NCBI RefSeq assembly: GCF_009996735.1
Contig: NZ_JAACYI010000010.1
Span: forward strand, 1-64,000
Reading direction: 5' to 3'
Source of the DNA: Cellulomonas sp. APG4
GTDB lineage: Bacteria; Actinomycetota; Actinomycetes; Actinomycetales; Cellulomonadaceae
DNA length: 64,000 nt
The notes under the pieces are model-generated. The model did no database searches and was not told where the DNA came from. It saw only the letters and a list, made by a program, of their open reading frames with translations. The first letter of the stretch is position 1, and every line of letters begins with the position of its first letter. Shown here piece after piece: positions 41,280 through 47,487 of the stretch. The position numbers and the translations under genes were made by a program.

Positions 41280-43058
41280 ATGCAGACCCACCAGTACGAC
41301 GTCGTCATCGTCGGCGCGGGTGGCGCAGGCATGCGTGCCGCGCTCGAGTCCTCGACGCGGGCCCGCACCGCGGTGATCAGCAAGCTCTACCCGACGCGGT
41401 CGCACACCGGCGCGGCGCAGGGCGGCATGTGCGCGGCCCTCGCCAACGTCGAGGAGGACAACTGGGAGTGGCACACGTTCGACACCGTCAAGGGCGGTGA
41501 CTACCTGGTCGACCAGGACGCCGCCGAGGTCATGGCCAAGGAGGCCATCGACGCGGTCCTCGACCTCGAGCGCATGGGCCTGCCCTTCAACCGCACCCCC
41601 GAGGGGCGGATCGACCAGCGCCGGTTCGGTGGCCACACGCGCAACCACGGCGAGGCCGCCGTACGCCGCTCGTGCTACGCGGCCGACCGCACGGGCCACA
41701 TGATCCTGCAGACCCTGTACCAGCAGTGCGTCAAGCAGGACGTCGCGTTCTTCAACGAGTTCTACGTGCTCGACGTGCTGCTCACCCACGACCTCGCCGG
41801 CGGCGACGTGCCCGCAGGTGAGGAGGTCAAGGTGAGCGGGGTCGTGGCGTACGAGCTCGCGACCGGCGAGATCCACGTGTTCCGCGCCAAGTCGGTCGTC
41901 TTCGCGACCGGCGGTGCAGGCAAGATCTTCAAGACGACGTCGAACGCGCACACCCTCACCGGTGACGGGATGGCCCTCGCGCTGCGCCGCGGCATCCCGC
42001 TCGAGGACATGGAGTTCTTCCAGTTCCACCCGACAGGTCTCGCCGGCCTGGGGATCCTGCTGTCCGAGGCCGCCCGCGGCGAGGGCGGGATCCTGCGCAA
42101 CAGCGAGGGCGAGCGCTTCATGGAGCGGTACGCGCCCACGATCAAGGACCTCGCTCCACGCGACATGGTCGCGCGGGCCATGGCCAACGAGGTGCGCGAG
42201 GGCCGCGGCTGCGGTCCCGACAAGGACTACGTGCTGCTCGACCTCACGCACCTCGAGCCGGCGCACATCGACGCGAAGCTGCCGGACATCACCGAGTTCG
42301 CGCGCACCTACCTGGGTGTGGAGCCCTACACGGAGCCCGTGCCCGTGTACCCCACCGCGCACTACGCGATGGGTGGGGTGCCCACCACGATCGACGCCGA
42401 GGTGCTGCGCAACGCGACGGACGTCGTCGGCGGGCTCTTCGCGGCGGGCGAGGTCGCCTGCGTGTCGGTGCACGGCGCCAACCGCCTCGGCACCAACTCG
42501 CTGCTCGACATCAACGTCTTCGGCAAGCGTGCGGGCATCGCGGCGGCGGCCTACGCGACCACGGCCGAGTGGGTCGACCTGCCGGAGGAGCCCGAGGCGT
42601 ACGTCGTCGGCGAGATCGAGCGGATGCGCGATCGCGCGGCGGGCGAGCGCGTGGCCGACGTACGGCGCGCGCTGCAGGAGACGATGGACGCGAACGCGCA
42701 GGTGTTCCGCACCGCGACCTCGCTCGAGCAGGCGCGCGCCGACATCGCCGAGCTCAAGAAGCGCTACGCGGCCGTGAGCGTCCAGGACAAGGGCCGGCGC
42801 TTCAACACCGACCTGCTCGAGGCGGTCGAGCTCGGGTTCCTGCTCGACCTCGCCGAGGTCGTGGTCGAGGGCGCTCTCGCGCGCGAGGAGTCGCGGGGCG
42901 GGCACTTCCGTGAGGACTTCCCGACGCGCGACGACGAGAGGTTCCTCCAGCACACCCTGGCGTACGCGCGCCGGGGTGCGGACGGCTCGACGACGATCGA
43001 GCTCGGCACCAAGCCGGTGACCATGACCCGCTACGAGCCCATGGAGCGCAAGTACTGA
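41280..43058 (+). CDS. sdhA: Succinate dehydrogenase flavoprotein subunit
   Basis: 592-residue catalytic subunit carrying covalent FAD. The FAD-binding start [17 protein letters not shown], the flavinylated histidine in [12 protein letters not shown], the active-site region [11 protein letters not shown] and [20 protein letters not shown], the HYAMGGVPT loop and [13 protein letters not shown] are all present. It oxidises succinate to fumarate in the TCA cycle and respiratory chain. It lies 38 nt after sdhD with AAGGAA upstream and overlaps sdhB by one base. Confidence 0.97.
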
Positions 43059-43885
43059 TGGCGCAGACGAACGAGATCGCACCCGAGACGGGCTCGGCCG
43101 AGGGCACGCCCGGAGGCACCGACGAGCGCGAGCCGCAGGCCGCTGACGCGAGCGGCGGCGCGGGCGCCGTGCCCAGCTTCGACGTGACCCTGCGGATCCG
43201 CCGCTTCGACCCGGACGCCGACGAGCCCGAGGCGTACTGGGAGGAGTTCACGGTCACGGCGTACGGTACGGACCGCGTGCTCGACGCGATGCACAAGGTC
43301 AAGTGGGAGGTCGACGGCTCGCTGACCTTCCGTCGCTCGTGCGCGCACGGGATCTGCGGCTCGGATGCGATGCGCATCAACGGTCGCAACCGGCTCGCCT
43401 GCAAGACGCTCCTCAAGGACCTCGACCCGAGCAAGCCGATCACGATCGAACCGATCAAGGGCCTGCCCGTGATCAAGGACCTGGTCGTGGACATGGAGCC
43501 GTTCTTCGCGTCCTACCGGGAGATCATGCCGTTCCTCATCACGGGCGGGAACGCGCCGTCGGCCGAGCGGATCCAGTCCCCCGAGCAGCGCGAGCGCTAC
43601 GACGACACGACGAAGTGCATCCTGTGCGCCGCCTGCACGTCGTCGTGCCCGGTGTTCTGGACCGACGGCCAGTACTTCGGCCCCGCCGCGATCGTCAACG
43701 CGCACCGGTTCATCTTCGACAGCCGCGACGAGGGCGGGGCCCAGCGCCTCGAGATCCTCAACGACAAGGAGGGCGTGTGGCGCTGCCGCACGGTCTTCAA
43801 CTGCACCGAGGCGTGCCCGCGCGGCATCGAGGTCACCAAGGCGATCCAGGAGGTCAAGCGCGCGATGATCACCCGCGCGTTCTGA
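43058..43885 (+). CDS. sdhB: Succinate dehydrogenase iron-sulfur subunit
   Basis: 275-residue electron-transfer subunit. Cysteines for [2Fe-2S] occur in RRSCAHGICGSDAMRING with the fourth in NRLAC. Those for the [4Fe-4S] and [3Fe-4S] clusters occur in CILCAACTSSCPVFW and CTEACPRGIEV. The N-terminus is about 40 residues longer than usual and is Ala/Gly/Glu-rich, probably disordered. It is the last gene of the operon. The repeat array at 43911 begins about 25 nt after its stop. Confidence 0.96.
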   Translation: MAQTNEIAPETGSAEGTPGGTDEREPQAADASGGAGAVPSFDVTLRIRRFDPDADEPEAYWEEFTVTAYGTDRVLDAMHKVKWEVDGSLTFRRSCAHGICGSDAMRINGRNRLACKTLLKDLDPSKPITIEPIKGLPVIKDLVVDMEPFFASYREIMPFLITGGNAPSAERIQSPEQRERYDDTTKCILCAACTSSCPVFWTDGQYFGPAAIVNAHRFIFDSRDEGGAQRLEILNDKEGVWRCRTVFNCTEACPRGIEVTKAIQEVKRAMITRAF

Positions 43886-43910
43886 CCCGACCACCCTCTC
43901 CCCCGCCCAC

Positions 43911-44020
43911 GCGCAGCGCTCCGGGCACGTGCGGAGCGTTCCGGACCCGCCTGGAGCGTTCCGGACCCGCGTGGAGCGTTCCGAGCTCGTGTGGAGCATT
44001 CCCAGCCGGTGTGGAGCGAA
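43911..44020 (+). repeat. Left array of a 20-bp tandem repeat (GTGGAGCGTTCC family)
   Basis: At least five consecutive units spaced exactly 20 bp apart (starts 43911, 43931, 43951, 43971, 43991, with a partial sixth at 44011). The core is GTGGAGCGTTCCGGACCCGC with scattered changes; units at the outer edge are the most degenerate. The orientation is GTGGAGCGTTCC on the plus strand. The same repeat in the opposite orientation forms the array at 45231-45350. Confidence 0.9.
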
Positions 44021-44040
44021 GCTGACCCTTCTCGCCGCGT

Positions 44041-44063
44041 GTCGGCCCGAGAACGCTCCACAC
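44041..44063 (+). repeat. Left inverted repeat of the nuclease cassette
   Basis: GTCGGCCCGAGAACGCTCCACAC matches the reverse complement of 45192-45215 at about 21 of 23 positions, with one single-base gap. Its right part (CGCTCCACAC) also pairs with GTGTGGAGCG at 44009-44018, forming a hairpin. Confidence 0.8.
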
Positions 44064-44084
44064 GCCGCGCCGGCGGAACGGGCG

Positions 44085-45077
44085 TCACGTTCGTGGGGTC
44101 GTCCAGCGTCGCTCCTCGGGACGTCGGGACCGGGCACGTCGGTAGCCCGCACGCAGCCGTCCCTGCCACCGCGCCACGGCGGCACCGTCGCGAAGATCGA
44201 CAGCGGTCGCCCGGACAACCGTGAGGCCCAGGTCCTCGAGCCATTCCTGCCGCTCCGCGTCCTGCGCTCGTCGCTCGGCACTCGCGTGGTAGGCGCCGTC
44301 GTACTCCCCCACCACACCGGCCTGCTCGTCGAACAGGTCCACCCGCGCGACGAACCTCCCGACGCCATCGAGCACGACGGCGTTCGCCCGTGGGCGCGGC
44401 AGGCCTGCCTGCACCCAGGCAAGCCGCAGCAGCGACTCCTGCGGTGACTCGGCGGCGCCGTCGACCATCGAGAGCGCACGACGCGCGGCGAACGCGCCAC
44501 GCGCTCGGGGCCATGCGTCGAGCGCGTCGGCCACCTCGACAGGCGTGACCGCACCGACGTGGATCAGACGGTCGAGGCCGATCACGGCGGTCGTCAACGG
44601 GAGCAAGCGGGCGAGATCCAGCGCCGTGCGCACCGGGGACGTGATCCGGATCCCGTCCACCTCGACGCGTTCGTGCGCCCGGGCCTCGCTGCGGAGCACG
44701 CGCACGTCGGGCCTGAGAGTCAGCCTGCTCTCGCGCGCCGCGACGACGAGCACCCGCGCCTGACCGTGGGCGAAGTCCTGCCGGACGAGCTGCCCGTCGT
44801 CCCATCGTCGACGCCCGTCGAACACCTCGAGGTCGTCCGTGGCGTCCCGCGCCTCGAGCAACCGTGCGGCGCCCCATCCACCGACCACCGCGTGCTCCGG
44901 CAGGTCTCCCGCCACGGCTGCGATGCGCACGTCCGGGTTGAGCGGGTCCGTCAGGGAGTCCACACGGACGCCGCGCCGCACGGCGACCATCCCCGGTCCG
45001 CGCCACGCGCCCTCGGAGACCCCGCGAGCGGCGGCCTCGCGGGCACGCACGATGAGCGCTGACGAGGGACGCATCAT
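44085..45077 (-). CDS. Putative AbiEi-type/DUF559 endonuclease-fold protein
   Basis: 330-residue basic soluble protein. Residues about 5-160 resemble the AbiEi-like N-terminal module common in actinobacteria: EHAVVGGWGAARLLEA, then GIRITSPVRTALDLARL. Residues about 210-300 carry a Vsr/DUF559-like PD-(D/E)XK nuclease pattern: E214 in SPQESLLRL, then D247 in VARVDLFD, and E258 and D260 in VVGEYDGAYH. It is probably a DNA endonuclease or a decayed relative. It starts ATGATG at 45077 and lies alone between two inverted repeat arrays and downstream of trpS-ligT on the same strand. No partner toxin, methylase or transposase is adjacent. The role could be defence, element mobility, or self-regulation through the repeats. 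Confidence 0.65.
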   Translation of the reverse strand: MMRPSSALIVRAREAAARGVSEGAWRGPGMVAVRRGVRVDSLTDPLNPDVRIAAVAGDLPEHAVVGGWGAARLLEARDATDDLEVFDGRRRWDDGQLVRQDFAHGQARVLVVAARESRLTLRPDVRVLRSEARAHERVEVDGIRITSPVRTALDLARLLPLTTAVIGLDRLIHVGAVTPVEVADALDAWPRARGAFAARRALSMVDGAAESPQESLLRLAWVQAGLPRPRANAVVLDGVGRFVARVDLFDEQAGVVGEYDGAYHASAERRAQDAERQEWLEDLGLTVVRATAVDLRDGAAVARWQGRLRAGYRRARSRRPEERRWTTPRT

Positions 45078-45191
45078 GGCGTCAGGATCCGTGCGCGCGG
45101 CTCCGGCCGGTGGCGATCACGTGAGCCGCTGTGGACCGCATCCGCCTGTCGCGTGCTGTGGAGACCTGCTCCGGAGCGCCCGTGGCGCTTG

Positions 45192-45215
45192 GTGTGGAGC
45201 GTTGTCGGGTGCGAC
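45192..45215 (-). repeat. Right inverted repeat of the nuclease cassette
   Basis: Starts GTGTGGAGCGTTGTCGGG and ends TGCGAC; it is the mirror copy of 44041-44063. It lies 115 nt upstream of the nuclease start and points toward the right-hand array, with which it can pair. Confidence 0.8.
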
Positions 45216-45230
45216 ACGCCGGTGAAGCGG

Positions 45231-45350
45231 CCGGGAACGCTCCACATAGGCCGGGAACGCTCCACACGGGCCGGGAAGGCTCCACATGGGCCGCGAACGC
45301 TCCACATGGGCCGGGAAGGCTCCACATGGGCCGGGAACGCTCCACACCGG
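45231..45350 (-). repeat. Right array of the 20-bp tandem repeat, inverted
   Basis: Six units exactly 20 bp apart (starts 45231, 45251, 45271, 45291, 45311, 45331). The consensus is CCGGGAACGCTCCACATGGG on the plus strand, which is the left-array repeat reversed. Variation is limited to AACGC/AAGGC and the last four bases. The units are better conserved than in the left array. The array lies between the ligT-like stop (45378) and the nuclease gene. Confidence 0.93.
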
Positions 45351-45377
45351 CACCGAGCAGGCCGCCAGGACAGGCGG

Positions 45378-47487
<2,110 letters not shown>

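Follow-up and report, generated by a model that had tools for sequence, protein, structure and literature searches.

Between sdhB and ligT, the window (the whole stretch of 64,000 nucleotides that was analysed) contains a single putative nuclease gene enclosed by two arrays of 20-bp repeats in inverted orientation. What are these repeats, and what connects them with the gene? The features of the locus are as follows:

43058-43885, plus strand: sdhB, the conserved left neighbour (Pfam; context only)
43910-44062, minus strand: left flanking element in reverse orientation, with outer 20-bp array, box and inner single unit
~43930, 43950, 43970 and 43990, minus strand: cores of the left array units at 20-bp spacing, with a weaker core at 44010 and a degenerate one near 43910
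44034-44044, minus strand: left box, two mismatches to CGACACGCCGG
44049-44062: left inner single unit, opposite to the array
44085-45077, minus strand: gene of an AbiEi-like/DUF559 (Vsr-like, PD-(D/E)XK) nuclease of 330 amino acids (Pfam, conserved residues)
45193-45346, plus strand: right flanking element in forward orientation, with inner unit, box and outer array
45193-45206: right inner single unit
45212-45222: right box CGACACGCCGG
45233-45346: right outer array of six 20-bp units, opposite to the inner unit
45378-45920, minus strand: gene of the ligT / 2'-5' RNA ligase family, the conserved right neighbour, followed by trpS (Pfam; context only)

The symmetrical layout described in the initial annotation (array, inverted repeat, gene, inverted repeat, array) was recovered, and units, boxes and arms were located on both sides. 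The right array comprises 5.9 copies with 90% matches (TRF). Positions 43915-44044 and 45212-45341 form the arms of an inverted repeat, which pair over 130 nt with 72% complementarity. Each flank is one complete copy of a dispersed element, in which inverted 14-nt units surround a CGACACGCCGG box and one arm is drawn out into a 20-bp array. The two copies point away from each other with their arrays outward. Chance was considered as the origin of this layout and rejected. A search of positions 43700-45500 against Rfam yielded nothing up to E = 1, and a known RNA family was likewise rejected as the identity of the repeats.

The protein matches Pfam DUF559 above the cut-off (E = 9.1e-6) and, below the Pfam cut-off, MTES_1575 (7.7e-4) and AbiEi_1 (0.03); DUF2726 is also among the matches up to E = 1. 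The Y1 transposase family (Y1_Tnp, HUH) gave no match up to E = 1 and is absent from the Pfam families of 26 homologues, 19 of which match MTES_1575 and 18 DUF559 (E up to 0.1). In a passage of PMC3710099, MTES_1575 is a novel Vsr-type REase domain by its naming. Residues D169, S211, E214, R218, P229, D247, G261 and G284 are invariant in the 26 homologues; near-invariance extends to E258, D260 and R276, among others. A profile search against PDB sequences found 3hrl (8.7e-4) and PvuRts1I (0.013). The middle of the protein resembles the AbiEi models of PADLOC (3.4e-6), and the AbiEi-like N-terminal part is a probable DNA-binding region. This stretch is what the protein has in common with AbiEi of the type IV toxin-antitoxin system AbiE. 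It differs from that system by its fused nuclease domain and by the lack of an AbiEii-type gene directly beside it; the neighbours encode SdhB, LigT and TrpS according to Pfam. With no AbiEii toxin gene among the adjacent genes, an AbiE toxin-antitoxin system was rejected.

Allowing one mismatch, the genome that carries the window (G000, genus Actinotalea) contains 56 copies of the core unit GGGAACGCTCCACA, eight of which belong to the window locus; the reversed control gave 0. Elsewhere the core was counted 13 times in G014 and 8 times in G017; the other 15 of 17 genomes contain 0-2 copies (controls 0-2). In total, G000 harbours 16 element loci outside the window locus. The initial annotation called this the only locus of the window with such repeats. 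This is correct within the window, where all 11 matches to the 14-nt core (up to two mismatches) fall in the nuclease locus, but does not extend to the whole genome. At 15 of the 16 dispersed loci, a unit is followed 4-5 nt on by the CGACACGCCGG box (0-1 mismatch) and then by an opposite unit, which starts 39-40 nt from the first one (up to four mismatches allowed per unit). The exception, L074, is a lone unit. Most dispersed loci carry extra 20-bp units on one arm or both. Seven elements were folded as DNA and gave z-scores from -2.6 to -8.0 relative to mononucleotide shuffles.

The dispersed elements are mainly intergenic. A codon-model gene caller placed 14 of the 16 loci between genes; L073 overlaps the 3' end of an ORF, and a long called ORF contains L081. 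In a survey of 100 stretches and the window (1.99 Mb, 53% of G000), 32 of 34 units were intergenic, although called intergenic sequence made up 11.2% of the DNA examined. The unit also emerged without prior choice as the top intergenic 13-mer family of G000 (top word 19 copies). This ranking was obtained with genes masked, as 15-mer counts of whole stretches were swamped by coding words. The third intergenic 13-mer, with 10 copies, corresponds to the unit that accompanies another DUF559 gene in G000. The second one, CGCCGTCGTCGGC (16 copies), was rejected as a word of coding composition with 93 copies, of which the 24 inspected have unrelated flanks. A plain terminator was also rejected, since copies of the element are found between divergent genes as well.

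Close homologues of the nuclease are found at eight loci in seven other genomes. All of them are bracketed, often by a different unit. Seven share 46-54% identity with the window protein, and the second copy in A. fermentans (G014) shares 48%. The bracket scores of the window locus and seven homologues lie above at least 98.7% of the cross-locus controls, a set of 462 pairs contaminated by orthologous pairs. The two gene copies of A. fermentans have different elements, and the second copy sits between two copies of a palindrome. The G000-type core is common to G014 and G017, the unit of G007 comprises 19 bp around GGCACGACGCTCCGC, and that of G030 is AAGTGGAGCGATGTGC.

These elements are abundant where the gene is present. 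Counted together with copies beside genes, as for all other units below, the G007 unit has 86 copies in G007 (control 7) and 49 in A. solisilvae (G012, control 5); in the 17 genomes other than these two and A. ferrariae (G009) there are 1-14 copies (controls 2-11). A. ferrariae contains 5 exact copies of it, and 16 with one mismatch versus 12 for the control. The exact copies (C75:2985-3075, C213:4251) include a cluster of four around a centre palindrome and differ from the units beside the gene of G009 itself; the dispersed elements of this genome may belong to another or older partner. With up to two mismatches, the centre palindrome occurs at least eight times in 6 of the 8 genomes that have a close homologue (G007 15, G012 23, G014 11, G009 8, G017 8 and G030 36, the latter counted irrespective of G030's cognate unit). 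This is the case in 0 of 12 genomes of the same genus without a homologue, which have 0-3 matches each (Fisher p = 0.0007). The two exceptions with a gene are G000, which has a diverged centre (0 matches), and G010, an 83% complete genome (1 match). Widespread repeats with no link to such genes had been named as evidence against a mobile element. Widespread they are, but with a strong link to the gene.

The gene is located between sdhB and ligT-trpS in the window, in G017, G014, G007, G009 and G010, and in G030 from another genus, i.e. at one orthologous site in 7 of 9 loci including the window. Relocated or extra genes were seen only in G012 and G014. We compared this junction in 18 genomes. 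In nine genomes of the genus the gap is bare and 16-102 bp long, so that empty sites, whose absence had been expected to speak against an element, do exist. In G012 the gap (L105, 577 bp) holds two facing elements with long arrays and no gene between them; no gene remnant was detected there, and the G012 gene lies with two elements on another contig. The gene is thus mainly vertically inherited, absent in places and rarely relocated. Eight further gaps of 1.0-1.3 kb (L112-L119; G031, G001, G015, G033, G020, G024, G008 and G021) resemble another gene, perhaps one for a membrane protein.

The paired inverted flanks are what one would expect of a classical transposon, in which the gene has terminal inverted repeats and the dispersed copies are MITEs moved by the nuclease as transposase. 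This picture is in line with the relocation or extra copy of the gene in G012 and G014 and with the two elements that G012 retains without a gene at the sdhB-ligT site. However, 15 of the 16 dispersed copies are built like one flank with its own inverted pair and not like a pair of left and right ends. The constancy of the gene's site argues in the same direction, and we found no phage match and only four partial plasmid matches covering 46-49%. A classical transposon is thus distinctly unlikely. The gene with its two flanks is also not mainly a self-moving cassette, as the initial annotation had it, since seven genomes, six of the genus and one of another, share the sdhB-ligT location. The annotation's broader idea, a mobile and largely non-autonomous element with ties to the nuclease, was borne out. 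What spreads is the single flanking element.

For two of the 16 dispersed sites we compared orthologous positions, using gene names and inspecting gap sequences by eye. At the ybdK-PadR site the G000 element was absent in all 8 relatives examined (of 15 searched), with gaps of -2 to 110 bp versus 248-324 bp in G000. At the mscS-malQ site it was absent in all 6 syntenic relatives examined (of 15), with gaps of 110-208 bp versus 277-334 bp. These relatives are whole species apart and their gap sequences are too diverged to place junctions or recognise target-site duplications; loss could in principle account for the absence in place of gain.

The elements might instead be binding sites with a cellular job, such as operators or sites of chromosome organisation, or self-marks of a defence nuclease, spread by ordinary duplication and selection. 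The AbiEi-like part of the protein and the 20-bp spacing, which is near two helical turns, are compatible with this, and with elements on either side the gene could be autoregulated. A promoter preference is not apparent, however: the gene pairs at the 14 intergenic loci comprise 3 divergent, 3 convergent and 8 co-directional ones. Elements are also located at the 3' side of the gene, their presence is species-specific at the two sites compared, the unit changes between species, and no AbiEii-type gene lies directly next to the nuclease gene. We regard such a role as an unlikely origin of the elements. The operator array that had been suggested earlier is not supported by the distribution of the dispersed copies, but may apply as an additional function.

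The bracketing extends to the wider DUF559 family. Among more distant DUF559 loci, 14 of 22 have bracket scores that reach the top 1.3% of the cross-locus controls or exceed it, a threshold that is affected by the orthologous pairs in this control. A separate scan yielded 63 named loci, mostly from Nocardioides and mycobacteria. The loose motif D..E-x-D/N-G is present at 57 of them and EYDG itself at 54. With flanks set from the query match and 233 shifted controls for comparison, 56 of the 63 loci score beyond the 99th percentile, a threshold derived from those same controls, and 48 beyond the highest control; the median bracket score is 32.5 versus 13.0 for the controls. An earlier flank definition gave 45 of 62 (L135 was left out for too short a flank), because some gene ends had been misjudged. 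A bracket is absent by this test at seven loci (L125, L126, L131, L140, L149, L155 and L165).

In most cases tested, the palindromes of distant homologues are also dispersed in their own genome. The unit of G040 has 93 copies (control 0), many of them as inverted pairs, and seven bracket the gene; G058 from the same genus has 10, G043 and G051 have 6 each, and eight others have 0. The Nocardioides unit GGTAGTCCCTGACGAA was counted 20, 24, 21, 7, 4 and 4 times in the six genomes that have this or a similar arm beside their gene (L145 left out), and 0-1 times in the other 19. For the mycobacterial unit the counts are 25, 12, 6, 34, 31 and 8 in six of seven genomes and 0 in five controls. The seventh genome, M. 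colombiense (G083), has 0 copies and no bracket either. G085, the genome of L155, has 12 copies but no bracket by the test used.

Further DUF559 genes of G000 show the same pattern. A gene on C21 (L237:1421-2449) is bracketed by GAGTTCGCAC-type palindromes, and its unit has 33 copies, five of them at its own locus, compared with 0-4 in 17 other genomes. The gene reads in two frames and looks broken, yet its unit has this many matches, so present activity is not needed for the elements to persist. Two more paralogues have bracketing repeats of their own, clear on C20 and weaker on C15 (no separate control).

Given their REP-like anatomy, the elements could also owe their mobility to some other enzyme, e.g. 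an HUH RAYT, and just accumulate near DUF559 genes. The dispersed copies found in G009, which differ from the units at its gene, point in this direction. A RAYT motif search of G000 gave two matches in 1.99 Mb, neither RAYT-like by eye; with a crude motif and 53% of the genome covered, it leaves some room for such an enzyme. Against this stand the different elements owned by different DUF559 genes of one genome and the 48 of 63 loci whose bracket score exceeds each of the 233 controls. Mobilisation by some other enzyme is accordingly highly improbable.

Based on these results, a partnership between gene and element is well supported. It is observed as bracketing, dispersal, co-occurrence of gene and element, homologue-specific elements, species-specific presence at two sites and conserved nuclease residues. 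That the nuclease spreads the elements is an inference. The locus is probably organised like a REP/RAYT pair, with a Vsr-like PD-(D/E)XK nuclease in place of the HUH transposase and the gene with its flanks as the 'mother locus'. We propose the following mechanism. A mostly single-copy, largely vertically inherited gene is bracketed by two copies of a hairpin-forming element, which is also spread over tens of intergenic sites. The N-terminal part of the protein would recognise the repeat unit, and the nuclease would nick or cut the hairpin or the target DNA. HUH enzymes form a covalent intermediate with DNA, which is not expected of a PD-(D/E)XK enzyme; for this reason the new copy is proposed to arise in a homing-like way, with host repair or replication carrying the element over to its new location. 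The 20-bp arrays would have arisen secondarily, by expansion of one arm. We prefer the homing-like route as a guess, because the nuclease domain weakly resembles Vsr-fold enzymes, one of them from a mobile intron: the profile search gave weak matches to PDB entry 3r3p ('Mobile intron protein', E = 0.095), presumably I-Bth0305I, and to Vsr (0.7-0.8). A Vsr-fold homing endonuclease is a possible precedent for an enzyme of this fold that spreads DNA. It differs from the present case, where the elements are short hairpins.

The likeness to REP/RAYT loci noted in the initial annotation holds, as the gene is flanked by copies of a dispersed palindromic element. As in REP/REPIN-RAYT systems (TnpA-REP, 'REPtrons'), a mostly single-copy gene adjoins dispersed palindromes in cognate pairing. 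The elements are intergenic, inverted and hairpin-capable, and their abundance tracks the presence of the gene (see the genome counts above). PMC8266576, PMC3116915 and PMC3733652 describe RAYT as behaving like a resident gene with dispersed cognate palindromes beside it, and the partner enzymes of REP-like repeats named there are all HUH enzymes. In contrast to the HUH tyrosine enzyme of REPtrons, the nuclease is Vsr-like with an AbiEi-like N-terminus. None of the 16 dispersed loci and neither flank has the GTAG tag of REPtrons within the element or the 15 nt on either side, and, again unlike REPtrons, one arm has grown into a 20-bp array in several Actinotalea. Because the defining enzyme and the GTAG tag differ, we do not regard the system as a member of the REP/RAYT family; by analogy it would work like one. 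TIRtrons, RAYT-like genes with long terminal inverted repeats, resemble it in that the gene is bracketed by inverted repeats and some families are dispersed (in a passage of PMC3733652), but they use HUH tyrosine transposases.

Our results suggest a widespread partnership of enzyme and repeat in actinobacteria that is similar to REP/RAYT but involves an unrelated enzyme. We lean towards a second, HUH-independent class of REP-spreading enzymes across Actinomycetota, in which AbiEi/DUF559 nucleases, paralogues included, would each have a cognate hairpin family and act by homing-like cut-and-copy. We found no report of a pairing of DUF559/AbiEi nucleases with dispersed hairpins in the open-licence literature, the scope of our search. 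According to a passage of PMC8266576, the spread mechanism of short palindromic repeats remains to be elucidated, and part of PMC3733652 describes one REP superfamily without a known transposase. If our reading is correct, the enzyme-repeat partnership would have originated independently with an unrelated nuclease that shows the same genomic behaviour. This would also assign a role to the large DUF559/AbiEi-like family, whose function is unknown, and explain the leading intergenic repeat of G000. Many natural pairs of nuclease and repeat with differing units are now named, which makes the partnership directly testable.

Some further observations concern the palindromes themselves. Of the seven mycobacterial genomes that carry such a DUF559 gene, six contain a dispersed palindrome of the GTGTCTGNACANNGACAC type (L142, L155, L161, L162, L176 and L182). 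The flanking palindromes of Nocardioides (L137, L163, L133 and others) have a GGTAGTCC-like outer end in common and a variable interior, and in some of them GGTAGTCC lies inside the stem. In G064, G074 and G061, the starts of dispersed pairs are consistently 47 bp apart. A distant DUF559 gene with 34% identity (L238, C11:198900-203200) is bracketed by its own GAGGTCGACAC palindromes in G002, a genome of the genus without a close homologue.
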